A DNA stretch of 64,000 bases, from positions 1-64,000 of the forward strand of contig RWJK01000864.1 in the NCBI GenBank assembly GCA_004335835.1, in the 5' to 3' direction. A model generated the notes under the pieces. That model worked only from the letters and a program-made list of their open reading frames with translations, was not told the DNA's origin and made no database searches. Below, piece after piece: positions 4,238 to 60,600 of this stretch (positions within the stretch are counted from its first letter, which is position 1; each line of letters opens with the position of its first letter). Made by a program: the position numbers and the translations under genes. This DNA comes from Scenedesmus sp. ARA3 (Eukaryota; Chlorophyta; Chlorophyceae; Sphaeropleales; Scenedesmaceae).

Positions 4238-5568
4238 ATTTCAGACGCAGCTTTTGTGCGACAGGACGGAGCATGTTGCCGGGCTGCACGTTAGCTGGTT
4301 GAGTGCCACACGGCTATGCTGGGCATTGCTGGCCATGTCAGCTTCTTGCTAGGGTTTGCCAGGGTTTGTCAGCCACTCGTCATCGACAAACATGTTACCA
4401 ATTTCTGCCATAGCGACGTTGTCATCTGCCCTGCACCCCGCTGTTATCGACTGTCGCGTTGCATATCATCCTTTTGTGTGGGTCACAACTGGGCAAGCCC
4501 GCGTTTCAAGGCGCTGCGCTCAGGCATGAGCCCAGTCACTGTTACACCTGGCAGTGACAGCTTTGCTCAGCAAGTTGAGTCAACCACCACCACTTTTGTT
4601 ACACAGTGACACAGAGACACAGGCGTGCAGTGTAAGAACAAGTAACGGCTGGCTTGTCTGAAAGTTGTGACACTGTCTCGTGAGGTGTCAGCGGGGGCCT
4701 GCCTGTCAGGCTGCTCTGACATGCTCTGGCATCAACTTTAACATCATCGATTACAGAACAGTCGTTCAGACTCCAAAGCTGGGCGATGCATCAGAACCCA
4801 GGACTGCTGCACTCGGCAACCAATGGCCCTACTGTGTGCCAACTCTAGTGCGCTGTACTTGCAAAAACGCGCACGCGCATGGGCATGCTGTGAACCAACA
4901 AGCATGTGAGGTGCAGCCTCTTGTGCACTGCGCGCCTCAAACTCAGCAGCACAGCTAGCAACTCAACTCGTATCAACTCTTCACATGTCCCAGGCTGTTC
5001 CCTTGTCACTGAAGTTAGCAACGGCTGCTCCAGTTGCCTGCCCTGAACTCTCCACTGCACTGCCAGGTTGTGCATGTCCTGGTGTTTGCCAACACCACCA
5101 CCATGCACAACACCATGCACAACACCTGCCTACCAAAACTGTTTGCCGCAATGCAGCTGCAGCATCATGCCTGCCATACAACCAGCCGAGACCTCTTCTA
5201 GCAACAACTCCACAGATTGGCGGAAGGTACAACCGGCTACGCCTAGCCACCCAACGCACATTTCAGTCGAACGCTGACATTGGAAACACAAACACTCCCT
5301 TCACAGCATACTGACTCACTGGTGGGCTTAGTACAGCACCACAGGTTGCCCAAACACATGCAGCGTACTCAGCGGCATGCGGTTCAGCCCACATTGCGCC
5401 GCTAACAGCACAGCGTACTGACTGCACTGGTGCGCCTAGTACAGCACCACCGGCTGCCCAAACACATGCAGCGTACCCAGCAGCATGCGGTTCAGCACCA
5501 CAATTCACCGCTAAATCCCCTGCCGCTGACAGCACAACATACTGGTAGTTCTGACTGCACTGGTGGGC
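4238..5568. other. Intergenic region between convergent genes
   Basis: This is the 3' flank shared by the BTB gene (plus) and the ABC1 kinase (minus). Open frames here are short and show no protein character. Minus-strand TGTAA motifs, the usual algal polyadenylation signal, occur at 4603-4599 and near 4753 and could serve the kinase gene. The right end holds tandem copies of the kinase terminal exon, listed separately. Confidence 0.6.
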
Positions 5569-5640
5569 CTAGTACAGCACCACAGGCTGCCCAAACACGT
5601 GCAGCGTTGCCAGCAGTGTGCGGTTCAGCACCGCATTCAC
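5319..5640 (-). repeat. Three tandem copies of the ABC1K terminal exon end
   Basis: A block starting actggtgggcctagtacagc recurs at 5319, 5426 and 5559 (plus-strand coordinates). The rightmost copy is the genuine C-terminal coding end of the ABC1 kinase (GQPVVLY then TAG at 5571-5569). The two left copies lie beyond the stop codon, in what must be the 3' untranslated region, and carry several substitutions and small indels. Unit spacing is about 107 and 133 bp. Confidence 0.85.
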
Positions 5641-8600
5641 CGCCAGGTACCCCCGGATCACCAGCAGCCTTGCCTGGATGTTCACCCGGTATCCCATCTG
5701 CGCAAACTTCTTATCAGCCTCACTCAGGTCCCCATCAGGACCTAACCCGGCCCAGGCGCTGCCATAACTCGGCAGTCCGCGGAACGCCCAGGTGCCGTTG
5801 ATGCGCAGCCGGTCAGCCAGGCTGCAGCCGAGGCTTGCGGTGACGTTGCGCACAACAGCAGCAATGCGCAGCAGCTCCACGACATCACGAGGAGCGGTGG
5901 CGAGCAGCTGCGTGATGTCACCGAATGAGGCCACGCCAGCAGCCCGCTGCATCTCCTTCTGCTCCTCCCTGTAATCGGTGGCAGCAACGGGTGTTGAAGT
6001 ATGTCAGTAACACAGCATGGTGCAGACATGCATACGAGTTGGCTCACTCTCGCGCACACTTTGCTGCTGGCACACCTGCTCCATCGCCTATGTACCAAAG
6101 CTGCTGGACATGTCACTCTACTTGCGTGAATCACTGGCAGCATCTGCCCCGCGCGCTGCCATCCGTCAAGCACTAAATTACTAAGAAGCAGAAGCCAGTT
6201 CTGTTGTGTATGCAGCCGCAGCCGCTGCTCACTTATTGCGCCCGCGCTGCGTGAGGATGACCGGCAGAATCTGCCCCGCACGCTGCCCTCCCAGGTCAAT
6301 GGCCACAGCCGCAGCCCCAGCGCTGTCTCCCGCGAACAGGCTGCACCACAGCTGGCAGTACTGCTGCCGCAGCCTGTTGCTGATGGACAGGTAGCTGCCG
6401 TGGTCCAGCAGCACCACCTCAAAAGGCTGCCAGGTGCCACGCAGCAGCCACGACAGCAGCCCCCGGCGGCCTGCATGTGAAAAGTGATCGAAGCAACACG
6501 AGGCACAGAGCTTCAGCAGCAGCAGCAGTCGCATTTGGCATTTAACACCACTGTTTACTTTTGAGTCACATGGACTGCAGCACCACCTCGAAAGGCTGCC
6601 AGGTGCCGCACAGCAGCAATGACAACAGCCCGCGGCGGCCTGCGAGCGACAGATGATCGATACAGCACGATGCAAAGGTATGTGGGAAGGTCACTTGAGT
6701 GCAAGTCACAGAGACTAAGCACCACCTCAAAAGGCTGCCAAGTGCCGCGCAGCAGCCAGGACAGCAGCACGCGCCGGCCTGCAGCGCGCGACAACCAATG
6801 CAGCACAAAAGCATGGTCGTGGAGCACAAACACGCACCATTGCTGCGCCGCCCGTGCAGCAGCGCAAAAAACTTCAAGGTATGAGCGCAACTGCAGGCCG
6901 CACCATGATGTTGCCCGGGTGCGGGTCGCTGTGGATGTAGCCGTGCACAGACACGCACATTAGTATGTCAGCCCTAAAGTAACATACAGTTGAGAACGTG
7001 ATGCAGTACGTACCTGTGGGCCGCACCATGATGTTGCCCGGGTGCGGGTCGCTGTGGATGTAGCCGTGCACGAAGGTCATCTCCGCAAACGCCTCGTCCA
7101 TGGCGCGGCCCACAGCATGCGGGCTGATGCGCGCGGCACGCAGCGCAGCGCTGTCGTTGACCTGCAGTTGACGAGAGTGCCACGCAGTACTGCAGCGTGA
7201 GCAGATGCATCTTGGTGTACAGGCAGCGCCGGAAACACAACAACTGCCGGGCCAGTACCTCCGTGGTGCATCTGAAAGAAACTGTTTCTGCGAGTTGGCA
7301 GACTGTTGGCAATGGCTCTGCCAACCGCCCGTCACAACCCAAGCGTGCCTGCCAGAAAGTTCCTGCACAGTCACATGTTTCTCCCACACGATTAGTTGTA
7401 CGTCGAGACAAAGTAACAAAATCATAAACCACATTGAGGCGTCAATCCGCTCCATGGTCAGCACCTTGCTCGTATACCGCCCCCTCACAACCCAAGCGTG
7501 CTTGCCACTGAACCGCAGCATGCCTGCCTCATGACACAAGTGCACCTGCTGAAACCCACCTTGAGGCCATCAATCCACTCCATGGTCAGTATCTTGCTCG
7601 TGCACAGCCCTGCATGCGCTGTCGGCACAGTCACGCCGCAGCGTGAGTCAGCACTGCACCTGCTGCTGCAGCTGCCACTGCCGCCTCCGCCGCCGCTGCT
7701 GCTGCTGGGGTACATGCAGGACATGAGCTTCTGTGCATTGTGAATCTCCACATGGAAATCTGCAGGAGCCAGCAGCAGCAAGATCGCAGACATTTGGCTG
7801 TTAGAAAGGGATTGGGGTGCATACTAAGTGCTCGCATCTCAGCTGCCAAGCGTGCATGCAGCAACAGCAAACTCTTCTATGGCCTGAAAGGTCAGGGCTA
7901 AGCTTGCAGGACAGGCCTGCATAGCATAGTGCTACCATCAGACGCACGACAGCGTCACGAGCTGTGCGCACTGCACAGAGAAGCAGCATCAGCGCTAGCA
8001 GCAGTAAATCCAGTAACACGCGCCATAAAGCCAGCCCAACACACTCACCCGCCTCCTCTGCCAGCTGCAGCTGCAGCTAGGAAAAGGCAGCAATGTCATC
8101 ATTCAGCACCAATTGTCATCCAACAAGGTACCTGAAACTGGCCACTAAGGTAGTGGCACTCCTCAACACTCACCTCCTCAGTCAGCTTCAGCTGCAGCTC
8201 TCCTCAAACAGCCAGCCCAGCCGGAACTTTGAGGAACAGCACCCGACAACCCAACACACCACCTGCCCAACCCAACACAGCTGAGTAACTTTGAACCCTG
8301 AAAGTACTTACAAAGCAGACAAAATATGCAGCCAACACACACAAACACCCTGCAGCGCCACACAGCAACATCACCACCAGCAGCATACAGCCATGAAACC
8401 CCAGGCACACACACAATTCTCTACCTACCCAGCTCCCCAGTCAGCTTGAGCTGCAGCTTCTCAAATAGCCAGCCTCGCTGGAACTCCGGGAGCAGCAGCA
8501 TCAGCAGCAGTGAAACACTTATTTCTCCCATGAAGGCCAGCCTGTCACCTACCCAGCTCCTCAGTCAGTTTGAGCTGCAGCTCCTCGAACAGCCAGCCCA

Positions 8601-11600
8601 GCCGGAACTCCGGGAACAGCGCCTGCGCAGCCCGTGACAGGCAGCCCAGCGTGGTCAGGTCGGCATTGGCAGCACCCCTGAGCCCGGGGTACTGCACCTT
8701 CACCGCCACCTGCCGTCCGTCAGCCAGGCGCGCCTTGTGCACCTGCATATGCAAATTGAAAACGTGTCAGTTGATGTAGCACTGGCGGACGCCGCCCGCC
8801 CGGGGTACTGCACCTTGAGTGCCGTTAGCTCGGCGCGCCTTCTGCTGTCTCGAGACACATGTTGGTCAAGCCATGTCATGGTTGTGCATACCTGAGCCAG
8901 GGAAGCAGCCATCTACAGCAGCTGTGCCAGCATGTGCTGCTCTCACCTGTGCCAGGGATGCTGCTGCTGTCGCCTCCGCGCTGAACTCTGCGAATACCTC
9001 CTCTGCGCCCGCCCCCAGCTCCAGCCGCAGCACCCTGTCCACCACGTGAAAGGGCCGCGGCTTGGCCTTGTCCTGCAAGCAAGTGTTTTGATTTACAGCA
9101 GCAGCAGATGGTTTGTACGTGTGCGTGTGTGTGTCCTGCAAGCAGCCTAAGAAGCAGATGCTACGTCCACAACCTGGCTCTGTTACCTCAGGCTTTCGGC
9201 GTGTCATGCAAGCACTGTTGGCAGCAATGGCTGCTTTGAATTCACCATGATACAAAGCGCCTGCCACAACCATCCAAAGCCTGCCAGGCTGCTGGCAGCA
9301 CAGCAGCAGTGTTGATTCGCAGGGAATGCAGATTGGCTGTTTGCTGTCACAGCTGCGCACCTGCAGCAGCGCCAGGTGCTTGCGGTACTCGTTTGGCACG
9401 GCACCAAATGCAGCAGCAAACTGGCCGGCCTTGACGTAGACGCCTCCATTGGCTCGGCACACCTCGGTCAGCCGCTGCAAGCAAGTACGAGGCATCACCA
9501 AAGCAGATTCAGCTGATGCACATTGGATGGCTGTTGCCTCATCAAATTTGCTGTGCAGAAACGCACCTTCAGACAGCCCTACACCCATGCCCCACCCGCG
9601 CTGCCACCCGCGCTGCCACCTGCGCTGCCACTCTCTGCCAGAGGCAACGGATGAGCACGCTCAACAGCGGCCATCACCAGCACACCACCCACCTGCGCCC
9701 AGTAGTTGTGCAGGTTGCTGATGGCTGCATTGCACCCTTCCACATTAAGCATGATGTCTCCGTCAACAGAGCCCCACTACCCACGTGTGCCCAGTAGTTG
9801 TGCAGGTTGCTGATTGCCGCATTGTACCCTTCCGGGTCGAGGTCAGGCGCAAGGCTCATCATCAGCCGCTTGTACCAAGTGCTTACTTGTAACAAGTGCT
9901 CGCTTGCTAGTGCCGATGTTGCTTGCTGTACAACCTGCTCTGCAAACCTATTCCAGCACCTGTGCTGCGCTCAATATCCTAGACAATAGCCGAACTGTTG
10001 TGGCTGCACCCACAACAACTAGCACAACACGCCCCCTCACCCACCCACCTGTGCCCAGTAGTTGTGCAGGTTGCTGATTGCCGCATTGTACCCCTCTGGG
10101 TCCAGGTCAGGCGCAAGGCTCATCATCAGCCGCTTGTAACAATTGCTGACTTGTAACTAGTGCTCGCTTGCTAGTGCTGACGCTGCTTGCTTGTCAACCT
10201 GCTCTGCAGACCCACAGCACCTGCACTGCGCCCTCCGTCATAGGCAACAGCTGAGCTGTCGTAGCTGCACAACATGGCCCCTCACCACCCACCTGCGCCC
10301 AGTAGTTGTGCAGGTTGCTGATTGCCGCATTGTACCCTTCAGGGTCCAGGTCAGGCGCCAGGCTCATCATCAGCCGCTTGTACCAAGTGCTTACCTGAAC
10401 ATCAAATTCGCCTGCTTCTGCCAACATTGCTTCCTCTAAAATCTGTGCTGCAAACCCATCACAGCACCTGTGCTGCGCTCGACATCTTAGGCAATAGCTG
10501 ATCTTTCCAGATATCACTTAGCAACCAGCAAACAACGTGCCCCGTCACCCACCCACCTGCGCCCAGAAGTTGTGCAGGTTGCTGATGGCCGCATTGTACC
10601 CCTCTGGGTCCAGGTCAGGCGCCAGGCTCATCATCAGCCGCTTGTAGCCCACCGCAGCCTGCACCGCCCACTGCAGCGTGCGCAGCGTGCGAGGCAGCGA
10701 GCCAATGAGAGCGAGGATGTCGTCACCAGCCTTGACTGCTGCTGCTGCTGCGGGGCCCAGATACAGTGAGCTGCGCGCCTTCATGCCTGCAGCAACATGG
10801 TGATGACATGAGATGCCACGGGCCGAAATCATGCAGAGAGATGGAGACGGAGCGCAAATTGACAGCTGGAGAATGGTATTAAATGTAAAGCATAGGCATG
10901 CCCAGTGGGTACGGCACTTCATACACTCTGGTTGCTGCTGCTACTGCTGCTGCCGCTGCTGCTGCTGTGCATTAGGGGAATGCCGCGGTGCCGCATACTG
11001 TCACATACATCTGCAGCTGCTTGTCACTTGCAGAGCACAGTGACCTGCCAGCTTTCGGCAAGCATTGAACTGCATCTTGCATTGAATGCGCAGGCGCCAA
11101 GGGCGGAGCTAGCTGCACATACGTGCATCGCGTGCAGGCCAAGCCATGTCACTGTCTTCCGCACGCACTGCACACCCAAATAATCACCCACACACAGAGG
11201 CACTGCATGCGAGACAAACCTGCGGGCCTGCTCACCTTTTGCAACTGCCTGCACTGGCGCTGTTGCAGACGCTGCTGCAGCAGCGCTTGTGCTAATGCCT
11301 GCAGTCTGCTCTGCCTGCAAGGGCAGCGGGTGCGAAGCTGGAAACGCCTTGGTGGTGTAATGCGGCCCTATTGGCAGCACTGGCTTGGGATGACCTGGCG
11401 GCCCTACTGCTGCTGCTGCTGGTGCAGCAGCAGCTGCTGCTGCTGTAGTGGCTGCGGGAGTGTTGCTTGCTACTGGTGCTGCTGTTCCAACTGCTGCTTG
11501 GGCTTGCAGCTGCAAGCCCCTGCTGGCAGGGCTGCCTCGGCTGCTGCTTGACACTGCTGATGCTCGAGGGTATAGCATACCACCTAGCCCTATGTACCAC

Positions 11601-11863
11601 AGCAGTGATGTAGCTCTAGACAACAGCGGGCCTGCTGCTCTGCTTTGTGATGCACCGGGCCTGCTGCTGCTGCCTGTGCTGTTCAGCCATGAGCTGACTT
11701 TGCTGTAGCAGCTGCTGCCACCCTGCTGCTGCTGTTGGTGCTTCAGCACCGTTGACTGCAGCGGCTGCGGCTGCTGAGGCTGCTGCTGCTGTGGCTGCTG
11801 CGGTTCTATGCAGCCTGCAGGAGCAGCAGCCTGACCAGCCTGCTTCTGCTGCTTGAGGGGCAT
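5569..11863 (-). CDS. ADCK1-type ABC1 (UbiB-family) atypical kinase
   Basis: Nine exons: 11863-11236, 10786-10557, 9474-9361, 9072-8947, 8742-8553, 7759-7560, 7161-7014, 6470-6233, 5968-5569; 757 aa with all phases matching. The first 210 residues are Gln/Ala/Ser-rich with one hydrophobic segment (LLWYIGLGGMLY), probably organelle targeting or a membrane anchor. Family motifs are intact: KxGQ as VYVKAGQ (301-304), the Ala-rich loop ATAAASLAQ, the VAVK lysine (about 381), LTMEWIDGLK, catalytic HSDPHPGN (532-539) and VLLDHG (about 568) in place of DFG. The run LFPEFRLGWLFEEL...EELDF matches ADCK1 rather than the ADCK3/COQ8 branch. Members are membrane-associated ATP-binding proteins linked to mitochondrial or plastid lipid and quinone metabolism; the exact substrate is unknown. 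Introns hold many copies of exon edges (listed separately). Confidence 0.93.
6575..6785 (-). repeat. Two echoes of ABC1K exon 8 start
   Basis: Minus-strand copies of the exon 8 beginning (GRRGLLSWLLRGTWQPFEVV) lie upstream of the real exon (6470) at about 6575-6645 and 6712-6785. Both keep the reading frame for over 15 codons and a preceding CAG-like acceptor, then diverge. Together with the real exon there are three copies, spaced about 170 and 140 bp. Confidence 0.85.
6895..6950 (-). repeat. Identical second copy of ABC1K catalytic-loop segment
   Basis: A 53-nt stretch at about 6896-6948 is identical to 7017-7069 inside exon 7, encoding VHGYIHSDPHPGNIMVRP. It lies in intron 7, 121 bp downstream of the real copy. 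Flanks on both sides are unrelated to exon 7 beyond the repeat. Identity suggests a very recent duplication. Confidence 0.9.
7435..7480 (-). repeat. Echo of ABC1K exon 6 end
   Basis: Minus-strand sequence reading TSKVLTMERIDAS repeats the exon 6 end TSKILTMEWIDGLK. It sits in intron 6, about 110 bp beyond the genuine donor at 7560. Confidence 0.8.
8046..8497 (-). repeat. Three echoes of ABC1K exon 5 end
   Basis: Copies of the exon 5 3' edge (FEELQLKLTEELG plus donor region) are found at 8421-8497, 8171-8235 and 8046-8076, with increasing decay away from the genuine end at 8553. The first copy keeps the ctacctaccc donor context. Confidence 0.8.
8790..8845 (-). repeat. Echo of ABC1K exon 5 start
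   Basis: A degraded copy of the exon 5 segment around the VAVKVQYPGL codons and the CKARL codons occurs about 95 bp upstream of the genuine exon 5 in intron 4. The cggggtactgcacctt core is shared with the real exon. Confidence 0.7.
9597..9634. repeat. 12-bp minisatellite
   Basis: The unit cgcgctgccacc is repeated about three times in tandem inside intron 2 of the ABC1 kinase gene. Confidence 0.7.
9693..10388 (-). repeat. Four echoes of ABC1K exon 2 end
   Basis: The last 30 codons of exon 2 (YKRLMMSLAPDLDPEGYNAA onward) recur at 10293-10388, 10050-10140, 9785-9884 and 9693-9748 in intron 2. The first three keep the frame almost completely and are followed by the same gtgggtg-type donor (or a close variant). 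Spacing from the true donor (10557) is about 264, 243 and 264 bp, then 93 bp. None has a good acceptor before it, so they look like decoy donors rather than exons. Confidence 0.88.
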
Positions 11864-12005
11864 CTGGGGACTGTGCTACGATCCTGTGGTGACGCCTATG
11901 CGACTAAATAGGTTATTTCAGAAGTATTGGCGTGATAAATGCGCCCTGATCTTCTGGTCTGCTGTGCTCGTATGTTTACAGCAGTAGACAGCTGGGCTGC
12001 CAGGT

Positions 12006-12380
12006 ATGGAGAAGCGCCTGCTGGTCCGTGGAGGAACGCCACAGCAAACAGCAAGGATACTTCATATTAATCAAAGGCTCCTTTCGTTGGCTCTTCACAA
12101 ACTTGCTCCCTCGGACCGAGATCAAACACTATGCGAGGGAGTCTTGCTTTTATGGCAATGGTCACTCCAGGACTATGCTTTGACCATAGGCAATGCTAAC
12201 CTCTACGCCGAAACGGCCGAAAGGCCGGCTCAGCTCAGCCAGCTATGGAGCCGTGTGACTTGCCGTGTTTTCTCGTTCACCAAGCACTCGTTGCTTCGTC
12301 AGCAGAATGATAAACAGCACTGTATCCTTATACGATTGCTTGGGAAGATCGAGCATATGGCTGTGCAGGAGCTGCTGTGA
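12006..12380 (+). CDS. Hypothetical ORF, 124 codons
   Basis: An ATG-initiated frame without introns, starting MEKRLLVRGGTPQQ and ending HMAVQELL. Its composition is balanced and lacks the CAG-driven Ala/Gln runs that make most frames here open by default, which is the only argument for coding. No motif is recognised and no splice-consistent continuation was found. It may be spurious. Confidence 0.2.
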   Translation: MEKRLLVRGGTPQQTARILHINQRLLSLALHKLAPSDRDQTLCEGVLLLWQWSLQDYALTIGNANLYAETAERPAQLSQLWSRVTCRVFSFTKHSLLRQQNDKQHCILIRLLGKIEHMAVQELL

Positions 12381-13614
12381 CATACTGTGATAAGCAGCGG
12401 ACGCACACACCCAGGTCCTATGTTGCCCGATCCTCAACCGTGCATTGCGCTGTTGTGCGTGCAAAACGCATTTTACGTTGTTGTCGACAATTTCATGCAA
12501 AATCTTGAAAAGCAACTAACGGCGCCAACTCAGCCCGCCAAGACAGCTACAGCAGTCCTGGGCAGTGGGGATTGCCAGCCCACGTGTTACCAACATTTGG
12601 GTGGCCTAGCAAGCACCAGGATTCAACCGGAGGTACACAGCAGTGTAAACCAAATGAACCTCACCACAAACAGCAGCAGCAGCCAGTTCAATTCAGCCTG
12701 AATGCAGGCTGCAACCAGCAGGCGGCCATGTGGTGCCAAGTGGCCGGCGCTGCAGCGCAAGTCATAAAGATGCAAGGAGCACTCGAGGGCCCACACCACA
12801 CAAAACACATTGCACTACAACGTCTGTCAGCTCTCAAAAGCCTACAAAGCAAGGACGTATGCATGCAACATTTGCAGCTGAATGTCTACCTCCCAGCTTT
12901 GTCAGCTGGAACTGCACACTTGTGCACCCTTGCCTCAAACCACAGCTGCACACGCGCACTTGACCTCACGTGCTCAGGGGCGCAGCCAGTGGCTACTGCT
13001 GCAATTAAAACAAAAGGCAGCAGCATGGACTTGCAGCCAGAGCACCTTCGTTTACACTGCATGTTAGCATGGTTCAACTGGCAGATGCTGTGCAGCATGC
13101 ACTCAGCTTGCATCTGCATACAAGGCAACAATGCCCGCTGGTGGTGCAGATAAAGAGTAGCCACTCGGGTACCTTCTATCTGTTGCACATGGCAATGCTT
13201 TAGCATGCAGGACGCAACCTCCCACTCCTGCTCAAGCCCTGCTGCAGCAGTGCAATGACCCATTCGCTACTAATAGCATAAGAAATGCTACGCATCCACA
13301 GCCAAATTTCCAGCAGAGTCAGCAAACACCCAGACCAAGACCATACACAAACCGAAGGCACTTAGCCTAATGCTAACAACTCAGCTTGCCAGCGCAGAGC
13401 AGCCTGCAGCTGCAGCAACAATGAAGCTATGCTGAACCCACAGCAGGCTCCCAGCCAGCTGCAATAGCGTGTGTCTTGCACCTCAGCGGCGCGCAGCATA
13501 CCACACCAACTGGAGCAACGGCACATGCCACCAACAACACCAGCAGCAGCGGTGCTCACTGCACAATGACCACAATGTCTTAGCAGAACAGCAGCAGCTG
13601 CTGACAAATGTTCA

Positions 13615-13837
13615 GTGCAGGTCGGCCACGCAGAAGCCAGGCATGGGGACGCAGCAGGAGCTGCAGCAGCAGCAGCAGCTTCCTGCTTGCTTTGTGCGCA
13701 GCGGCGCTCACTGCAGGTCTGCCACGCCGAAGCCAGCCACGGCGCAGCTGCAGCCACAGCACCAGCGCCAGCTGCAGCAGCAGCCCACTGCTTCCGCAAG
13801 CTCACGTTTCACTGCAGGTCGCCCATGTCGAAGCGCC
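13615..13837 (-). repeat. Three echoes of the SHMT C-terminal codons in the 3' flank
   Basis: The genuine SHMT end (PGFNVADLQ, stop at 13879-13877) is followed downstream by degraded copies beginning gcaggtc at about 13811-13837, 13711-13745 and 13615-13656. The third still matches the coding end through the Pro-Gly codons. Spacing is about 70-100 bp. They lie beyond the stop codon. Confidence 0.75.
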
Positions 13838-13876
13838 AACGCCAGCGCCAGCAGCAAGGCTTGTGTTTACTTAGCC

Positions 13877-16158
13877 TTACTGCAGGTCAGCCACGTTGAA
13901 GCCGGGCATGGGGAAGCTGCTGGCGAAGGCCTCCACCCTGCCACGAATCTCCGCAAGCTCGCTGTTGCCGCTGATGCCCTTGACCCACTCCTTGAGCAGC
14001 TTGCCGTGGCTGTCCTGCACGGTCTTGGCCACCTGCAGCATCGCACAATCACACACAAGGGTTCAGTACGGTGTAACTAGTGACACTGATGCCCTTGACC
14101 CACTCCTTAAGCAGCTTGCCGTGGCTGTCCTGCACTCTCTTGACCACCTGCAGCAGTGCAGGCAGGAGTGCAAGACACAGCAGGGAAAAGAATGAGCTGA
14201 AGCAACACCGTGTTTCTTCCAAACAACAGCGCTTCTAGGCGTTGCAGAGTTCAAGTGTGCCGACACGATGAACCTTGAGCCTTCAAATCAATGTTTTGGG
14301 GGCTGTGTCTCACAGTCTGTCTGTATGGTGCTGATGTTGCACCGTGCTCACCTGCAGCACCTCATGCAGGAAGCCGGCTATCTGCTCGAAGTCAGACTCG
14401 ACCAGGCCGCGAGAGGTCATGGCGGGCGCGCCTGCAGGACAGCAACAAAGCAGACACAACAGGCAATACAAGTCAGCACTGAAAGTGTATGTACACGTGG
14501 CCTGACGTGCATAGCAGCATGCACAGGCAAGCGCATGGACACGTATGCGCACAGCAGCAGCACCAACCCTTCGCATGCGCTGCTGCCGCCAACTAACTCT
14601 GCACACCGCACGCATGCACAGCGTATAGGTGTGTAAGCAGAGATCTGCGCCCCAGTCAAGCATGCTGTGCTCACCGATGCGCACGCCGCCCGGGTTCATG
14701 GCGCTGACGTCGCCCACCACCGCGTTCTTGTTCAGCGTGATGTGCGCCTCGTCACACGCCTTCTCCATCTTGGCGCCGCTGATGCCCTGCGCACAGTGAA
14801 CAAAACAGCAAAACAGGCACGTACATTATCACTGACAGGTGTATAGTAAAGCAGCTAGCAGCTCAGCTGCAGTGCAGCTGCTGCACCATTGGCAGGTATA
14901 GTTGGAATTCCTGCACACAGTCCTGCTGCCATACCGCATGCAGGCCTAGCTAGACCATGCTGCAGCCTGCTGCTTCTGCCCTATCCCATCACCTCTAGGC
15001 ACTAGACACGCATCCATATTCAACACCCAGCCAACCCTGCTAAGCAACACACAACCCGCCTGGTATGACACACGCCCGCAGTTACACAGGCTGACCCTGA
15101 GTCACGTACCTCGCCGCGCAGGTCCCACAGCAGCAGGTGGTTGTCGGTGCCGTCAGTCACCAGCTTGTAGCCGCGCTTCTTCAGCGCCTCGCCTAGGGCC
15201 CGCGAGTTGGCCACCACCTGGCGCTGGTAGGCCACAAACTCAGGGCTGGCGGCGTGCTTCAGCGCCACTGCCAGCGCAGCAATCTGGTGGTTGTGTGGGC
15301 CGCCCTGCGGAAGTCAGAGAAAGATAGGCAGGAACCAAGACAGAAACGTGCTATCAGCGGTTCGCGTCTTTCAGTTCAGCTGCCAGCGCAGCGATCTGGT
15401 GGTTGTGCGGGCCACCCTGCAGGGACACACACGTGAACAGATGATGGTCATGTTGATGGTCAAGCAAGATAACAGTGTACAGGCTCAGTGCCGTGTGTAG
15501 CATGTTGTGGTTGCGGTAGCTCTCACAAGTAGGCTGCAGAGTGCAGACATTCCTGCAAAAAACAAGACACAAGCATGCCCATTAACCTAAAAACAGTGCT
15601 GGTCAAAGCATGGTCAAACATGGTCAAACTGCTGTGTGCCGCTTACCTGCAGCGAGGGGAAGACCGCGAAATCGATCTTTGACTCGTAGTCGTACTCGCT
15701 GCCCTCCGGCTCACCCTTGGCAAGGCGCTCAGCAGGCTTGGGGCCCTGCAGCATCAGCAGCAGCCGCAGCAGCAGTTGGGGCGGTGTCAGTGTATTGATA
15801 CATAAGGGGGCCTGACATTCAGTATCTGCACGCAGGCAATGAAGGACGACCAAATGACTTTTCAAAGTCGAAGCTCCTTTACAAGGAATCTGCGCTTGCT
15901 CATCCAAGCACACACTGCCTTCTGCATGCAGCACACATACAGCAACACACAGTGCCTCAACAGGCTGTTGACACCCCGAAATAGCTGCAGTGCAGCAGCA
16001 CACCTTGCGCATGAAGATCATGCCAGCACGGGGTCCCCTCAGGCTCTTGTGCGTGGTGGTGGTCACGACATCAGCGTACTCGAATGGGCTGTCCACCACA
16101 CCCGCTGCCACCAGGCCGCTGATGTGGGCCATGTCCACCAGCAGGTACGCGCCGACCT

Positions 16159-16192
<34 letters not shown>

Positions 16193-19919: not shown

Positions 19920-33757
<13,838 letters not shown>

Positions 33758-36210: not shown

Positions 36211-36250
<40 letters not shown>

Positions 36251-37410: not shown

Positions 37411-37446
<36 letters not shown>

Positions 37447-43246: not shown

Positions 43247-43355
43247 CTAACCCTCTGTATGCAGTCCCTCAGCAGTAGCGGCCAGTGCGCTGTCACCGTC
43301 CCAAGCAACAGACACAAGCTTCTCAAGTGGACACGAACTGGTGCTGCTGTCACCA

Positions 43356-43400
<45 letters not shown>

Positions 43401-44100: not shown

Positions 44101-44141
<41 letters not shown>

Positions 44142-44171
44142 CCAGGCACAGCTGCAGCTGCTGCTTGGGCC

Positions 44172-44204
<33 letters not shown>

Positions 44205-45471: not shown

Positions 45472-45525
<54 letters not shown>

Positions 45526-47461: not shown

Positions 47462-47572
47462 GTGCTTGCTTGCGGCAGCTGCTGGCCCTCCAGCAGGAAC
47501 TGCCCAAGCAGCAACAGCTATAGTTGCTGCTCCCTTGAAGCGAAAGGTACTAGTGTCAGCAGCGTATCAGGC

Positions 47573-51025: not shown

Positions 51026-51961
51026 CACCAGGCATCCAGGAAGGCGGCTGTAGTGAGCAAAGTCGTCCATCCACGTCTAGCATGTGTATGCGTAGGATTA
51101 GCGTCACCGTGTTACGGATCAACTCGGCTTGCTATGGCACCATAGCTGTGCATTCTGCCTTGTGTGCAATCGCCACCCACTGTCTTTCTGATGGGATACC
51201 ATCCAGGAGTGCTACTTTGGATGGTTGAGGTGTGCATGGCGCAGTTGAAGCAGGTTGTTCTGTATGGTGCATTGCTCAGCATTGGCCCAACCCGAGCAGC
51301 AGTCGAGTACTCCCATTGCTCAGCATTGGCCCAGGCTGGTGGGCAGTGCCACTGTGGCAGTGCTGTTGATGGATGTCGATTTGCAGAATGCTGAGAGTGC
51401 TGCCACCAAGATTGATTACTTGGTAGGATGAACAATGTGCAGATTCTGGCACCAACTTTCAGCTCAATAGGCGAAGGCACTGTGTTTACATGCCAATGCA
51501 AGCTTTTTACTTAGGCACTTGATCACTCCCAGAGCTCAACAAGCACGTACGGTACTGCCTGGTGTACTGCCCAACAGCACCACCGCCTTGTCCCACCTCA
51601 AGCACGCCTTACGGTGCTACCTCGTGGCCTTGAGGTAAATAAAGATGTATTGTATTGCTCGTTTTGCACAGCGTGTGCCCCGCAGACCTCCTTAAAACTT
51701 TGAAACATATTCAAGAGTCTGCGTTAGGTCTTGTTGGTAACACGAAATGAGCTCCCTGCTGACAGTTCAGGTAAACAACACATAAATGCAACTTGATCAA
51801 CTTTCGTTGTGCTGCAACAACTCAGAAAACTGAAACTGACAGTGGCCTTGACCCTGTTTGGGTGCTTCAAGCTCACGGCCGCTTCGTTTCGCACTTCCGG
51901 TCTTGTTGGTAGACACAAGAGTAGTATAGACGATTTACACACTTGTCTATCAGCGAATGCG
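51026..51961. other. Intergenic region with possible LINE 3' tail
   Basis: No gene was recognised. At 51610-51665 the sequence gaggtaaataaagatgtatt followed by gtattgctcg has the look of a non-LTR retrotransposon 3' end with a short TATTG-type tail, and the preceding 80 bp read like a retroelement C-terminus. This is tentative. 51800-51961 is presumed promoter and leader of the THP3-like gene. Confidence 0.35.
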
Positions 51962-54900
51962 ATGGCAACTCAGGCACTTCAAGCCGTGAATCATTTACTC
52001 GGGGACGAAGACCTGCTGAACAGGAGCCCAGGAGAAACAACACCGAAGCTTCAGCAGGTGCAGAGCAAGGCTGGTGCCGCAGCGGCCCCGACCCATACCC
52101 AGGCAGTCGCGCACCGAAAGCTTGCAAGTCCCAAGAAGCAGCCCTACGCAGTGAGAAGCAGCTCTACTGCAAGGCGCAGGCACACGCATATCGCGGTAGG
52201 CGTGCTGGAAGACGACAGCAAGCCCTGCAACTTCACAGACATCGGATACGGCCTGCTGGCCCCCAACGTGCTGCTCCGGCCTCCATTCAGTCACTTTTAG
52301 AGGTGAATAACCGGTGTATCGCAGGCAGAGAGTTGTGGTGTCCGTGCCCAAGTTCCATTGTTGAGCAGCAGTGGCACAGCAGTACGTATGTCTGCTTGCA
52401 GCTGGCAGTCTCTGGATGGTGTGCATAAGCAAGCATGTAGCATCAGGCGGCGAATTATTCTGTCTTCATGCGCCGCAGGCACAGAATTGGTTGCCGCGAA
52501 TGGCAGTCATCATCTTGTGCTCCTGCTGCTGCCTTCACCTGGTCTCTGCAACGCAGGCTTGGCTTACTTCAGCACCACATCTGTACTATCATTGATTTAT
52601 TTGGCACCCTACAACAGCAGCAAATGAAAGTGAAGGCAACAAAACGCAAAGCTGAGGCTGCAGACAGCCTGCATGGGGATGGACACAGCATCAAGGTCAG
52701 CAAGGTGCGTGCCCCCGCTGCTGCTGCTGCTGCCGCCTGCCTGTTCATGCAGCAACATGCAGGAACGTTGTGTGATCCTCATACACACGCGTCTTGCCGC
52801 ATTGGACAGCGGTGCAAACAGCCCACCACAGCAAGTGCGTGATTAGCAGCCTTGGCTCTGTATGTGCATGTGCTGACACCCAAGCCGCCGTGGGCAGCAG
52901 CTGTGCCGGCTGAGCTTGTCTGCCTGAATTCAAGTGGTCTCACATGGCTGACATGTCATGCTTGTGTGTGGCACCGCAGATCAATGCAGCAGCTGCGGGT
53001 GTTGCCAGCGCACACCATGCCGCAGCAGCAGCCAGCCCACCGGCGGCTAGCAAGGCAGCCAGGCAGCTGCTGGCGCTGCAGATAGAGGCCAAGGAGAGGG
53101 CTGTCAAGCTGATGAAGAAGCTTGCAGCACAAAATGATCCTGCAAAGAAGGCTGTGCTGCAGCAGAAGCTGGACAAACTGCTGTCAAAGGCAGCACCACC
53201 GTCAGCAGCAGCAGTTGCCGCAGCAGCACCAGGTGGTGGCATCGGCAGTGCAGCAGCAGCAGCAGGTACAGCCAGTGCTGTGCCAGCAATGCGCAAGCAC
53301 AGGCCGCAGCCGCTTGCAGGCATAACATCCGTCCTGGCCAACACACCAGCAGAGCAGGTGCGCTGGCAGCAACATTTTATCTGACTGCTGCACTGGGATG
53401 TGCAGTTCAGTCAGGTACAGCTTGACCAGCAGCAACTTTGCCTCCTGCAAGCAGCTTTTAAACAGCACGCCTCATGCTCTGCATGCCATGCGTCATCAAC
53501 TGCCTCTCAGGGCTCCCTCTTCTGCACCTGCAGGCTCGCCGCGCGGAGCGCCAGCAGCGCTTCGCAGCGGACCTCGCAGCCATGAAGCAGCCAGGCGGCA
53601 GCAGCAGCAGCAGCGCGCAGCAGCAGCAGGACGAGGGCATCGGCGCAGCCGGCGGCTGGCTGGCGCTTGGCGGCGGCTACGGCAGCAGCAGGTCGCTTGA
53701 GAAGGAGTACCTGCGGCTCACCTCTGTGCCCAAAGCGGAGGATGTGCGGCCGCCCGAGGTGCTGGCGCAGTCGCTGGCGCTGATCAAGCGGCGCTGGCGG
53801 GGCGGCTGCAGCTACGCGTGGGCCTGCAGCCAGCTCAAGTCGGTGCGGCAGGACCTGACCGTGCAGGTGGGTGGAGGATGGCGCGGCTGCTGGTGGTGAA
53901 GATGCGCCTGTTCTGTGTGCAGGTGCTTTGCGGATGGCGGATGGAGCAGCTTGCCACTGCGCAGAGCAAGTGGACGTGCAGGCAGTAATGCATAGAAAGC
54001 TTGCTGGGCAGGCTGCTGTTGCATGCACAAGTTGTTGCACGGGTGTCTCACATGGTCGTTGCACGTGCAGCAGGTGGCATGTGGTGCTTGCAGCTGCTGA
54101 TCAATGCTGGTTGTGTCACCGCTCTGTGTCGTAAGCATGATGATGTGCACGCTGCAGGGTGTCGCTGACGGCATGGCGGGTGACGCGTCTGAGACGCATG
54201 CGAGCGTGGCGCTGGAGAATTCTGTACTCTGTCTGAGAGCTGCGTGTGTGCATTATTCTGCATGCGTGTTGCAGGGTGTCGCTGACGGCTTGGCCGTTGA
54301 TGCGTACGAGACGCATGCGCGTGTGGCGCTGGAGTCCAACGACCTGCCTGAGTTCAGGCAATGCCTGGCGCGGCTGAAGCAGCTGTACAGGGCAGGGGTG
54401 AGTGACGCAGTTAGGCCAGCAGCTGGGTGGTGGCAGCTTCAGTGCTAGCGCTGCAGTGCACAGCAGCCATCAGATATGGTAGTGTGTAGCAGCGTGTGTA
54501 GCAGCGTGCAGCACCTGCCTGGATCGTGTGATGCGGCAGATGCGGCAGATGTAAGCCTACGCCTTTGGAAGTGCGGCGCAGCTGTCCTGCAGAGAGTCGT
54601 GGCGGTGTGTGTCAGTTAAGCAAGCTTCTCATTTATACTTGCCAGCACGCTGGTCCCTGTAGTTTTACACACCTGCTGCTGCATGTCCCGCGTGCGTGCA
54701 GGTGCCTGGCTGCGCGCCCGAGTTCTACTCGTACGCGGTGCTGCACGCGGCTGCGCTGGGCCCGCTGCTGCTGAACCAGGAGCTGGGGCAGCTGCCGCGG
54801 CACCACCTGGAGCACCCAGCCATTGTGCATGCACTGGCGACAGCAAGGACGGTCAGGTGGGTGGCAGGTACAGCAGCGTCACGCTGCTATGGGCAGGGTC

Positions 54901-56066
54901 CTGCCACCAAGAAACAATCGCAACACATGGCAGCAAGGTCGCGCCAGCCTCACTGGCTGCGCTTGCATGCAGAGGTAGTTAGACTAGACATTGTGAAAAA
55001 CATTATCAGACATTGCTGAAGCAACCAGTCGGTTTGAAAGACAAGCAATGCAAGTGCTGACTTGCTCTCACTGGTTTACGATATGCGTCACAATGTTGTG
55101 CCTGTGTGAAGCGAGTACATGCGCCATGTCCCCGCTTGCAACAGGCATGGCATTGTCCAGCGTATTGCAGCTCACCGAGAACAAGTCAGCACATGTTTGG
55201 CTTGTCAGCTAGCTAGCTTTGGCAATGTCTGTAGCTCAGTTTCTGTGTGCGGCCGCACAACTGCCTGATGTGCTTCATACCAACCCATGTACTGCCTACG
55301 TCCTGCACTTGTTTCGCCTGCGTGCATCACGTCTGCCGTCTCTCTGGTGCTGCTGCTTCTGCACCACCGCCTATCCACCACAGGTCTGGCGCCTACGTCA
55401 GCTTCATGCGGCTGTACACCTCCGCGCCGCGCATGGCGCCGTACCTGATGGACGCGCTGCTGCCTCGCGTGCGGGGCCAGGGCCTGGCGGCGCTGCTGGC
55501 AGCGCACCGCCCGGCGCGGCTGCCGCTGGGCTGGGCACTGTTGCAGCTTGGCTGGGAGGAGGACCAGGAGGGTGAGGTGAGATTTGAGTGGGGTTGATTT
55601 TGGTGGTGGACGCTGGTGCAGCTGTTTAATAGGGCAGTGGAGGACCATCAGCTGGGCTGGGAGGAGGTTTGGCAGGGCAGGCCAGCAATGCTGGGGGCAA
55701 GACGGCTGAGCTGTCTATAGGTTGATAAGATAGAGGTTGCAAGGGTGCCTGCCCATGTCCTGCGCAGTGCCTGCCTGATGATGTGCTGCGAGCTGCTGTT
55801 GCATTGCGGCAAGGCAAGTCTGCTGCCGCGGCTGGCGCTGGCGCACGATTGCATGTTGCCGCAGGTGTGCTTGAGCTGGGATGCGCCCGTGTGCAGCTGC
55901 AGTGTGTGCTGGTGCCGTGCTGCTGGCTGCACCTCTGACTGCGGTGTGTTTTGGCTGTTTGCTGCAGGCGCTGCAGTACCTGGCGCAGCATGGCGTTGTG
56001 GTGGATGAAGCCGCGCGTGAGATTGACACGCGCGCGTCGCTCGCTGCAGCAGCCGGCAGGAGCTGA
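51962..56066 (+). CDS. THP3/LENG8-type SAC3/GANP-domain protein
   Basis: Nine exons: 51962-52195, 52621-52704, 52980-53357, 53534-53866, 54275-54397, 54702-54856, 55384-55576, 55736-55864, 55968-56066; about 575 aa. The core block EKEYLRLTSVPKAEDVRPPE, YAWACSQLKSVRQDLTVQ, YETHARVALESNDLPEFRQC and LARLKQLY is diagnostic for the THP3/LENG8 branch of SAC3/GANP proteins, which couple transcription elongation, mRNP assembly and splicing. The end (HGVVVDEAAREIDTRAS) matches the close of the PCI-like region. The N-terminal half is Ala-rich with a basic patch (KVKATKRKAEA). Less certain parts are the first exon and its donor, and the exon 7/8 junction, where an alternative pair (55571 with 55734) gives almost the same protein. 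Confidence 0.88.
54159..54222 (+). repeat. Echo of THP3-like exon 5 start
   Basis: A CAG acceptor followed by a copy of the exon 5 beginning (GVADGMAGDASETHASVALE), 116 bp upstream of the genuine exon. The frame is open, with about ten substitutions. Confidence 0.9.
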
Positions 56067-57634
56067 GGCGGCAGCAGCAAGCAGCAGCAGGAGCAGGCCT
56101 GTGCCCATGTGCTGGTGCTGCTGCAGCAGAGGCAGCCGCGCTAATGGCGCGCAGCTGCAGGCAGTATGCGGTGTGTCTGTAGCTGCACACAGCGACCGTT
56201 ACTGGCCGACTGTGCTGTGGGGTCGCATGCACCAGCTTTTCAGGACATGTCGTATGCCACAATCCTGGCGAGCTGCTTAGAAGCGGTTCCTGGGTTTGGT
56301 GCCTGCATGCAGCATCTGGTGCGCTGGCTCTCGACATCAGCTGCTTTTCTCCCCAGCTTTATATAGAGCTTAGTAGTGCACCACGCATGCAGTATCGCAT
56401 GGTTCTGGCTGGGAGTGTTCTTGTATAACCAACAACAATCGCAGCGGCAGTGGCAAATGCACTTTGCCCGACACTCACTGACTGACTGGTGCCTGTACTT
56501 GTACCTCACTGAAGTTTGACTGATTGACTGGGAGTGGGAGTGAGGAGTTGATGTCTTATGCCTCTTTGGGTAGTAGCACTGCTGCCCAATAGGCATCGCA
56601 GCGTGCACGTTTGATATTGGTTCATGTAGGAAGCAGCTAGTAATTTGATTTGAGTGGCAGCTGCATGCAGCTTTGCAGCCTTGTGGTGCACTGCACTTCG
56701 TCGCTTGCTGTGATGGCAAGCGGCATGCAGCAGGCGCTGCACTTTAGCATGCCTGCTCTGCTTCGTTTAGTAGTGCATGCATGAAGATATGCTAGGCAGG
56801 CTAAGGCCAGTTTTAGATGCAGCCTGTATTATGATGCAGAGCTGGGTAGAGCAGAGTGGTGCTCGCCAGTGCGGACTGCTTGCATGGCAGCTGGCGTATG
56901 TTGTGATGACACAGTCTTCGTTGTTGCGGTGGCAACCCAAAGTCAACGACGTATGCTGGACACATGTGCATCCACCGTAGTCCTCAGGACTTGGTGTATC
57001 AAAGTTCGTTCTTATACATGTCCACCACAGTCTGGGAGTGTATCACAAGCTTGGTGATTTACAAGCAGGTTACTGTAAACAATGTGGGCAGATGGATCAT
57101 CATCTGGTGTAACTCTATTTGACTGGAAAATCATCTGAATGGTCTTGCTTCGCCTCTGCGGTGAAGGCGTGTAGCACAGCTGGCTAGCATACAACATCAG
57201 TTCAACTGGGAGTGGGAGTCCCACACCATCACTGAGGTGACCTCAGCATGATGGCAGCCAGCTTCTGGAGCATACGGGCCGGCCTGGAGAGGCAACTGGT
57301 GAAGCTTAATGAGGAACTTGCCATTCACAGAGGAAATGGTCAGCTGTGATGTCTGGGCACATAACTGTTTCGGCGCGTGACCCCAGCTGCTGGGACAACT
57401 CTGTTCTGCTGCTGCAGCAGGGCTGTAGCAGTGTCACTGTCACATCGGGCAGCTATCTGTACGCACCAAAAACTTGTCCCCTTTTTCAATGACAATGATA
57501 TGGTTTACAAACAGTGTAGAAGCGTGAGATAAGCAAGTAGGGTTTGAAAGCGTCGAGTTGACAGTTCGCGCGAAACCAAGTCACAGCTGCAAAATCACCA
57601 GCATCTTGTCAGCTTGCGTATCAATTTTTCAAAC
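56067..57634. other. Intergenic region between THP3-like and TPH genes
   Basis: About 1.6 kb between two plus-strand genes. Holds the 3' flank of the first and the presumed promoter of the second. Open frames are short and lack protein character. No repeat echo of the flanking exons was noticed. Confidence 0.5.
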
Positions 57635-60600
57635 ATGAAGCTGGACGGGGCTGACAAGGAGGCGCTACGGCAGCAATACCAGCAGCAGCTGCAGCAATGT
57701 GGCAAGGTACGCATTTGCAGGCAGTGTCGTCAAATGCGCAGCATGATGCAGGATAGCGCTGAATTCACAGAGACACATCTTCAAACAGCATAACCTCAGC
57801 ATCAGCCAGTGTCCGGCAGCGCAGTGACGATGCAGGGGTGCTGCAGGGCCAACGCCAGCAGCAGAGCAGCACCTGTGACACGTGTCCAGCATGAGAGCAC
57901 CTCAAGAATATGCAGAACATGTTTGATGCCAGCAGACTGAGCAGCAGCGACGAATAAGACAGGCATAACTTGTTGTTGCTGCCCGGCCACTGCCCTGCAA
58001 GTACAGGTCCCTATCTCCTGGGCACCTGCCAAGCACAGGAGCACGCAGATAGACACAGAGCGCGTGCTGCCTGGCACATCAGACTCACACAGCGTGCTTG
58101 CAGCAGTTACAGCCTTGCACTCACCCAAGAAGTCCACTCATGCAAACAGCAAAGCCACGCGGGCGCACAGCAGCAAGCGCGGCGCAGCAGGAAGCAAGCA
58201 GGCAGCTACCATCAAAGCAGCTGAGCTAGAGCCGCAGCCAGCAAGCGTTTACAGGACAGAGTTCTGCAAAGATGGTGCAGAGCAGCAGCGGCTGTCGCAG
58301 CTGACAACAACGCGCCGAGTCCTGCAAGGGAGCAGCGAATGGGCGCTGCTGGACCAACTGGAGCACAGCATTGCTGAGCAGGAGGTGCGTGCTTGTGGGA
58401 GCTTTCAAAGCAGCTTGGGCCGTGGCAGAGCACACAGCGGCTGAGCAAGGATACAATGAGGCCATTGATGTATGTAACTATAGCTGCAGCCCTTGAGCTG
58501 AATGCCAGAGGCACAAGGTTGACCTGCTGCACAGCAGAGCAATGATGCATTGCACTGCCACAAGATATACATGCTGGCTCGCTTGCTTGCTTGCTGCGCT
58601 ATGCTCTGCAGGTAGCAGTACGCCAAGCGCTGCGGCAGCAGGTGCAGCAGCAGCAGAAGCAGCAGCTCGATGCGCAGGTACAGGAGCACGAGCGCGCGCG
58701 GCAGGCGGCAGCGGCAGCCAAGGCTGCTGACCTCGCTGCAGCGGCAGCTGATGTTGCTGCTCACCAGGCGGAGGAGGCAGCAAAGGAAGAGGCGGCGCGG
58801 ACAGCAGCTGCAAAGCTGAAGGCAGACAGGGAGCAGCAGGTGAGAAGCAGGCAGCTGGGTTTGCGTGGCAGGCATTGACTGTAGTGGCTGGTGGCAAACA
58901 GGTCAACTCTGGTCAACGGTCTTGAGGTGGATACTTGCAGGAAGCCGCTCTTTAGTATGAGCTGTCTGAGGTGCTGCAGGTGTGCCACCAACTGTACTGC
59001 TGCAGGGGTGGGGCACAGCTGTGCCTGTATGGCACGGCACTACACTGCAACTGCTGAATCGCCTACAGCACTTGCAGCTGCTTACCACTGCCGCTGCTGC
59101 TGCGCTTGCCCCTGTATAGAGTGCCGCCGCAGAGGCTGCGCGCAGGCGCGCAGCAACCAAGAAGGCGCGTGAGGAGGCTGCGCTGCTGGCCTCGATTGAA
59201 AAGCAGATGGCCGCAGCAAAGGAGGCGGCGGCAGCCAATGCCGCTGATGCCAAAGCAGCAATGGAGGCAGCGCGCAAGGCAAATGAGGAGGCCCTGGCGG
59301 CCAAGCAGCGGGCAGCCAAGGAGCAGCAGGCGAATGATGAGCGGCTCATGGTTGAAACCATCAGGTGAGCTGTTGTTTGTAAACCAGCTGCTGTATGTGG
59401 CCGATATGATACTGCTCCTTGACTCCGAAGAACTAAGGCACCTGCATAGCTGCGCACCTTTAAGCAATGCTGGGCCAGGGCAGCCCCATACTTTCCTGTA
59501 CACTGGGGCCTGCCAGGAGCTTGTCCGATTAATTGTGTGGAATATGAAGGCGGCCAAGGTAGCAAGTGACATACATGCGAACAATATTCCTGCGCAGACG
59601 CTCACACGGCTGGCTCACTGCTGCTGCTGCTGCTGCTGCTGCCACAGGACGCTGCAGTGCCAGGAGGAGGCGCGCGAGGCGGCCCTAAAAGCGTTCCACG
59701 ACAACATCGCGGCGCGTGCGGTGCAGGCTGGCGCTGCTGCTGTGGCTGAGAACCGCGGCCGCGCGGAGCGTCAGGAGCGGCTGGTGGCGGCCAGCGAGGC
59801 GCGGGCCAAGGCAGAGGCGGAGGTGCGCAATTAGCAAAGCTGCCTTTCGTTGTGTTGCATCACGCTGAGTTTGGATGGGGTCTGAGGGCAAAGAAGAAGG
59901 GTTGGGGAGGCGGCGGATGGAGGCACACGGGGTGGCTTGGGCGGTGTACTCTTCACAATGGTGAGTGGGCATGATGCCTTGGGCTTTGCACGTGCCTTGC
60001 ATGGTGCAAACAAGAGGAGCGGCTGGTGGCGGCCAGCGAGGCGCGGGCCAAGGCAGAGGCGGAGGTGAATGACATGTAATATTGTGATATTTGTAGGGAT
60101 GCCGTGTACAGTTGTCAGGGGTGAGGCTGAGTCAGCATCTTGAGGAAGGAGCGTCTGGGAGCGGGGAGGGAGGGTGAGGGGATCAGAAGCGCACCGTGGA
60201 TGGAGCTGCCACACCTGCAGGTGTTTATGTCTTGCTGCTGGCACTGCTAGCCTCTGCTGCTGTGTACACAGCTGCTGCCACTGCCGCTGCCACTGCTGCT
60301 GCTGCTGCAGGCCAAGCATGCAGCAGAGGTGGCCAAGCGAGCTGCCATGGCAGCCGACATGAAGGCAGCTGCTGCTGCCGCCGCTGCTGCCAAGGCGGCT
60401 GCGCAGCAGGTGGCGCTGCAGGAGCAGACACAGACGCGGCTGGAGATGGAGGTAAGGGCAGTGGTTCGTGCTGCTGCTGCTGCTGCTGCTGCTGCTTCTG
60501 CTTCTGCTGCATGTTACACGGCTGAGCCCTACCAGTCAGAATGCCTGGCTCATCAACCTCAAGATGTAACGCGTACATTGAGGCCTTGCAGCTGCACAGC

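Follow-up and report, generated by a model that had tools for sequence, protein, structure and literature searches.

Serial copies of exon edges in introns of a Scenedesmus contig and a possible mechanism for their upkeep

Why should the introns of a green alga hold copy after copy of the edges of their own neighbouring exons? The question is raised by the first 64 kb (the window) of contig RWJK01000864.1 (C589; 80,852 bases) in the 87.3 Mb, 1567-contig assembly of Scenedesmus sp. ARA3, in whose genes an earlier note had described such partial copies, here called exon echoes, and had proposed that exon-intron junctions are repeatedly duplicated in tandem. We confirmed that exon echoes are real, and as their origin we lean towards tandem duplication that recurs across coding edges, in arrays that the constrained exon would keep alive, this last step being the inferred part of the proposal.

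Exon echoes beyond chance

Two genes of the window, RPB2 and ABC1K, were tested because the earlier note had named them. The other two were picked for local repeats already noticed in them: a 26S proteasome ATPase on contig C50, modelled from its own translation, which we take to be RPT6, and a gene on contig C120 presumably resembling proteasome subunit RPN2 (RPN2-like). The models of the two window genes were:

19920..33754 (+): RPB2 (RNA polymerase II subunit 2), 27 exons and 26 introns, spliced alignment to Tetradesmus obliquus protein P0001
5572..10784 (-): ABC1K (ABC1 atypical kinase), 569/570 residues identical to T. obliquus protein P0121

The RPB2 query was spliced by hand and led to the T. 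obliquus protein at 99%; spliced alignment to that protein gave the final model, whose product equals it at 1198/1198 residues, with GT-AG in 26/26 introns (codon-model segments served for gene finding only). Judging from the RPB2 and ABC1K matches, the window is T. obliquus or a very close relative. RPB2, ABC1K and RPT6, the three modelled genes, have 41 introns.

In the edge test, the 60 nt of exon beside each intron were scored against that intron alongside the remaining edges of the same type, and the reverse strand and non-adjacent edges served as controls; the test was confined by design to introns, donor echoes lying downstream of the exon and acceptor echoes upstream. In the four echo-rich genes, the own exon edge was the best match to its own intron in 50/98 tests vs 5/98 on the reverse strand (the reverse-strand counts for ABC1K and RPT6 being taken from printed scores). 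RPB2 had its own edge best at 12/26 donor and 12/26 acceptor edges, and in 17/26 introns on either side (reverse strand: 0 donor and 2 acceptor, 26 edges each), ABC1K in 7/14 tests (5/7 donor, 2/7 acceptor), RPT6 in 8/16 and the RPN2-like gene in 11/16. Among genes of echo-free contigs, for which models were approximate, the own edge was best in 0/20 tests for a P4-ATPase, and in 2/14 and 2/8 for genes that we take to be PDS5-like and PP2C-like.

The local repeats were also of one orientation. After removal of triplet-periodic matches, as before every BLAST count, window self-BLASTN gave 20 same-strand and 0 inverted pairs less than 300 bp apart, and a wider 308 kb sample of the same assembly (14 kb of it N) gave 127 direct and 2 inverted pairs (less than 600 bp apart, E 1e-3), local repeats making up 11.5% of bases. 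Within RPB2, self-BLAST found 18 direct and 0 inverted local matches, of which 17 touch an exon and the 18th joins echo units of intron 22. The pair at 41.1 kb in the window is weak (73.8%, E 6e-4). Indeed, both the claim of local, same-orientation copies of adjoining exon edges and the claim that an intron matches its own adjacent edge above controls were borne out by these counts. Chance and low complexity are ruled out by the reverse-strand and non-adjacent-edge controls and by the triplet-periodic filter. An assembly artefact is unlikely because most copies have diverged from their exon (up to 0.29 of sites) and because an ABC1K echo recurs in a T. obliquus protein from a 6.18 Mb contig of another assembly.

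The echoes catalogued in RPB2 were:

21894-21918 and 22068-22092 (span 21894..22092) (+): acceptor echoes of exon 22169-22293, both preceded by CAG
23323..23372 (+): donor echo of exon 23117-23260, 45/50
24035..24163 (+): two acceptor echoes of exon 24249-24362, 30/31 and 30/33
24426..24564 (+): two donor echoes of exon 24249-24362, 33/34 and 35/49
26055..26101 (+): acceptor echo of exon 26167-26346
27204..27288 (+): donor echo (15D) of exon 26945-27104, 93% over 85 nt, intron side unrecognisable
28910..28948 (+): donor echo of exon 28735-28846, 35/39
29141..29177 (+): acceptor echo of exon 29255-29334, 35/37
29779..29907 (+): two donor echoes of exon 29605-29699
29954..30014 (+): acceptor echo of exon 30109-30276
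30355..30530 (+): two donor echoes of exon 30109-30276, 24/24 and 21/23
31717..31772 (+): acceptor echo (24A) of exon 31837-32054, 55/56, intron side unrecognisable
32130..32417 (+): three decaying donor echoes of exon 31837-32054, 49/53, 50/56 and 32/41
32587..32640 (+): acceptor echo of exon 32723-32870, 46/54
32948..33451 (+): five donor echoes (26D, intron 26) of exon 32723-32870, first units 116-117 nt, intron part included

Counted by eye, GT or AG stands at the mapped junction in 24/33 RPB2 echoes (16/21 donors, 8/12 acceptors). Runs of CTG lie at 21727-21756, 23089-23114 and 24778-24823, just upstream of RPB2 acceptors, for which they may be the pyrimidine-rich tracts. Searched against the 87 Mb assembly, the 26D array matched its own locus only, which argues against a dispersed mobile element, for this one array and with the proviso that a missing match is not proof of rarity.

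Echoes in ABC1K, in a serine hydroxymethyltransferase gene (SHMT, identity from a Pfam match) and near 59.8 kb were:

9693..10382 (-): four donor echoes of ABC1K exon 10784-10557
8171..8513 (-): two donor echoes of ABC1K exon 8742-8553, with a third, weak, at 8091-8053
6891..6948 (-): donor echo of ABC1K exon 7161-7014, 56/58
6577..6778 (-): two acceptor echoes of ABC1K exon 6470-6233, the farther being 6778-6710
5307..5502 (-): two echoes of the ABC1K 3' end (last codons, stop codon, downstream sequence)
15364-15420 (-): SHMT acceptor echo of 15252-15308, 84%, offset 112 (window self-BLASTN)
13560..14160 (-): SHMT last exon, with one copy of the exon start upstream and three of the coding sequence (CDS) end and stop codon downstream, by eye
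60015..60067 (+): copy of 59773-59825, 53/53, flanks dissimilar

The claim of 100% identity over 53 nt held for 59773-59825 and 60015-60067; the block lies outside the gene models and may end at a donor or just short of a stop codon. The flanks of the block gave one non-collinear match at p 0.04.

Outside the window, protein-profile matches, an insensitive method, made echo-like overlaps evident in two genes, an ABC1 gene (C403) and a CCT gene (C1492). In the former, a second ABC1-family gene (C403:10001-20000), profile positions 15-46 occur three extra times and 129-156 twice, and 29% of these 10 kb are local direct repeats. One of the two local inverted pairs of the sample is C50:21429-21468 / 21673-21712 (95% over 40 nt). 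The window also holds a 1.2 kb inverted repeat (588-1802 and 2348-3582; 77% identical, about 0.5 kb between the arms).

Structure and decay of the arrays

In the three modelled genes, steps between neighbouring copies measured 83-264 nt (43/53 in 83-139, median 121), consistent with the spacing of 70-265 bp noted earlier, and showed no frame preference (18/19/16 mod 3). Shared 12-mers peaked at offsets of 100-140 and again at 220-280 in all samples, and inverted 12-mers were flat. Similarity to the exon drops with distance from it (15 arrays; 37 comparisons concordant, 8 discordant; permutation p 1e-4), as if new units arise beside the exon. In 33 groups from the three genes the exonic extent of the copies was 24-80 nt (80 being the longest that the query allowed), that is edges, not the whole exons with both splice sites whose duplication gives mutually exclusive or alternative exons. 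Whole units with their intron part were repeated in RPB2 intron 26 (89-98%), RPT6 introns 5 and 7 and ABC1K intron 1. Taken with the direct orientation, such units support repeated tandem duplication of exon-intron junctions. Splice sites are usual in the copies and are not required, because CDS ends with stop codons were copied too, where splicing plays no part (ABC1K twice more, SHMT three times; by eye); the earlier note was right that 3' flanks also carry copies, and its splice-junction process stands in that junctions are copied and falls in that the copying is not junction-specific.

When the echoes were compared with their exons, a first pass on RPB2 found 57/303 synonymous and 102/1032 nonsynonymous sites changed, with five new stops, ABC1K gave 54/232 and 61/731, and stricter trimming of the three genes gave 105/571 and 86/1899. 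C>T changes were about equally frequent at both site classes (29/460 synonymous, 16/288 nonsynonymous). We concluded that echoes decay roughly neutrally, with which some constraint is compatible; strong coding constraint is not needed to explain C>T, and the other substitution types leave room for it.

One reading of the echoes is that they are kept for a function, as alternative or poison exons or decoy splice sites. ABC1K echo 6778-6710 (-) is a 23-aa exon in the published T. obliquus protein P0121, in line with the claim that decoy sites are left behind, and other echo-rich genes may hold similar false or real annotated exons. Silent changes also exceed replacement changes overall, ABC1K intron 1 being the clearest case for constraint (8 synonymous vs 2 nonsynonymous distinct changes). 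However, the 23-aa exon was present in 0/14 aligned homologues (13 span the region; P0133 does not), the single residue difference in 570 between the published ABC1K and the window falls within it, nonsynonymous C>T is about as frequent as synonymous, the echoes have acquired stops, and what is copied is the exon edge and not the whole exon. We consider a function of this kind very improbable.

Intron length and regional distribution

Introns with echoes had a mean length of 538 nt (n=25) and those without 312 nt (n=16; p 1e-4), which agrees with the claim that the copies enlarge introns, and subtraction of the echo units lowered the mean of the 41 introns in the three genes from 450 to 273 nt. 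The Raphidocelis genome paper (PMC5966456, in excerpt) gives mean introns of 462 in T. obliquus, 230 in R. subcapitata, 302 in M. neglectum, 284 in C. zofingiensis and 270 in C. reinhardtii. Echoes may be the cause of the greater length, but longer introns also have more room for echoes.

The earlier note had suspected a genome-wide habit, and the sample did not support a uniform one: the echoes are regionally patchy. Among five-kb blocks (n=60), 26 had no local repeat and 23 had more than 10% coverage. Contigs C50, C120, C403 and C900 and the window at 5-35 kb are echo-rich, the window at 35-64 kb is in the echo-poor state, the samples of C200 and C300 (40 kb each, 80 kb together) are almost empty of local repeats, and C700 is among the echo-free contigs of the same assembly. 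In tetranucleotide composition, blocks of C200 and C300 partly overlap echo-rich ones and C700, C800 and C1300 lie apart, the composition of C900, C1100 and C1300 being distorted by N runs. The best match of the C200 P4-ATPase among those listed was a transcriptome protein (72%); no T. obliquus protein stood among the 120 matches listed, in a search that excluded proteins above about 1305 aa. The echo-free contigs may come from the same organism or from another, composition and the P4-ATPase match being compatible with both.

Proposed mechanism and comparison with known systems

We propose three steps. In the first, well supported, stretches of about 120 nt spanning a coding/non-coding boundary would be duplicated in tandem; as long as the outermost splice site is spared, or at a coding end the first stop codon, the duplicate should be harmless and would persist within the intron or in the 3' flank. 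One hypothetical source of such duplications is the repair of staggered opposite-strand breaks. In the second step, also supported, new units would be added beside the exon and older ones pushed inward. In the third, the parent exon, fixed by selection, would act as a lasting template, so that homology between exon and echo outlives that between intron parts; short-range mispairing or gene conversion may then re-seed or re-homogenise the exonic part, and exon-anchored arrays would persist and re-amplify while intron-confined duplications fade. As a predicted result, introns would grow, carry decoy splice sites and now and then yield a new exon, false or real.

The placement of the arrays bears on the third step. 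With exons and the exonic parts of echoes masked, 9 arrays were still detectable in the 41 introns, and 8/9 were in register with an exon-edge array. In a placement model, at least 24 nt of exon are included in 0.44 of harmless duplications, and P(8 or more of 9) is 0.008. A simpler explanation is that duplications fall at random, selection removes those inside exons, and those at edges or in introns decay neutrally, the better preservation of exonic parts being only apparent and due to the constrained parent and to detection by exon similarity. This accords with the direct orientation (127 vs 2), the intron sequence in the units of young arrays, the roughly neutral decay, the lack of frame preference, the stop-codon echoes and the one array (ABC1K intron 5) that may be intron-internal. 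Against it, at most 1/9 of the intron-detectable arrays lies off an exon edge, vs 0.56 of placements expected to be intron-only or nearly so. Moreover, an intron part was recognisable in only 9/22 nearest RPB2 echoes (p<0.05) despite a mean exonic identity of 0.885 over 33 echoes, and exonic blocks of 53/53 and 55/56 stand next to dissimilar flanks. We therefore regard random duplication with selection as possible and rather unlikely. The earlier view that simple tandem duplication is enough likewise fits poorly with exonic parts that stay 92-100% identical though the intron part of their own unit is often lost. Divergence between echoes was 0.129 in exonic parts vs 0.241 in spacers, and the gap that remains after the biases considered below suggests that the echoes go on receiving sequence from the constrained exon.

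Blocks that end a few bases from the splice site, with intron sides unrecognisable (RPB2 24A, RPB2 15D, ABC1K 6D), could also come from copying bounded by the edge, in which a templated-insertion or RNA-linked process would place the exon edge and a few splice-signal bases into the intron, some tens of bases or more inward, with no duplication of a whole unit. The 53/53 block at 59.8 kb points the same way, there without a gene model. However, several arrays carry the intron part too, GT or AG is present at the mapped junction of 24/33 RPB2 echoes, and stop-codon echoes include downstream sequence; this origin is improbable.

Several results weigh against recurrent duplication with upkeep by the exon. 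The support for the third step is indirect. The nearest echo is the best copy in only 9/15 arrays; the ninth intron-detectable array (ABC1K intron 5, 23 nt, offset 153 vs an echo step of 127) does not keep the register and may be an intron-internal repeat; and the placement model is crude, its three genes having been chosen after echoes were seen. The exonic/spacer contrast is reversed in RPB2 intron 26 (exonic 0.03-0.10 vs spacer 0.00-0.02, echoes 1-3), detection of echoes by exon similarity lowers the measured exonic divergence and explains part of the gap, and where an alignment of spacers was forced, the spacer gaps come out too large. The nonsynonymous/synonymous ratio was 0.52 in RPB2, 0.36 in ABC1K and 0.25 in the three genes with stricter trimming, and silent changes prevailed in most substitution types other than C>T, as in T>C (20/47 silent vs 6/359 nonsynonymous), A>G (10/20 vs 11/485), G>C (10/214 vs 3/597) and C>G (8/140 vs 6/608). 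The prevalence of silent changes, above all in T>C and A>G, may be due to silent substitutions in the parent, the older base surviving in the echo, and it could instead reflect constraint on the echoes. Overall, the figures speak for roughly neutral decay: from nonsynonymous rates by type, 43.6 silent changes were predicted and 105 observed (ratio 2.41), and a neutral copy next to a parent free to change at silent sites alone would give up to 2. Further, the link between length and echoes could run the opposite way, longer introns offering more room, and the patchiness stands without explanation in the proposed mechanism.

A stronger version of our proposal is exon-anchored concerted evolution, in which an edge held by selection seeds and re-homogenises copies at steps of about 120 nt, regionally, and is a main reason why introns in T. 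obliquus are unusually long; we put this forward tentatively, as less probable than not. The recurrent duplication of exon edges would offer a concrete route for intron lengthening, near-functional splice sites as raw material for exon creation, false repeats put by echoes into annotated proteins, and echoes that may preserve past states of the exon, and it would make testable the idea that selection on an exon drives repeat evolution in adjoining non-coding DNA.

Minisatellites and other tandem repeat arrays consist of head-to-tail units. The copies in the alga are likewise direct and close, as tandem duplication predicts (127 vs 2; steps 83-264 nt), with up to five copies besides the exon; unlike minisatellites, these arrays are anchored on a coding edge from which they tend to fade, and their unit length is similar across unrelated genes. 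Introners and introner-like elements, as excerpted from PMC9860276, resemble the echoes in adding sequence to introns or as introns, and differ in that one element is copied in many genes. In the AGGT (Rogers) model (PMC3443670, in excerpt), an exonic AGGT is duplicated and the resulting unit is spliced as a new intron; tandem duplication near splice sites is common to both, but the copies of the alga are held by an existing intron. A new intron of about one unit was not what we found: the RPB2 echoes lie within introns of 149-800 nt, and the outer splice sites of the echo-bearing introns give the known protein exactly, in agreement with the earlier statement that the process acts on existing introns, unlike AGGT intron gain. 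Repair of staggered breaks yields small tandem duplications and short (<100 bp) insertions according to the excerpted text of PMC8355091, and is alike in leaving a short segment repeated head to tail where the damage occurred; it is unlike in that the insertions described there are below 100 bp and exon edges are not mentioned in that text. A literature search, mostly without subscription journals, returned no account of serial, polar exon-edge arrays as a genome habit in algae. A close relative is a single tandem duplication in potato across an intron-exon boundary, which created a new intron (PMC4974935, in excerpt). It crosses the boundary and inherits the acceptor signals, and so equals the raw event of one acceptor echo, whereas the alga has dozens of copies in a handful of genes, serial and polar, within existing introns. 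Single boundary-crossing tandem duplications are known, and what appears to be new is their serial, polar arrays in existing introns.

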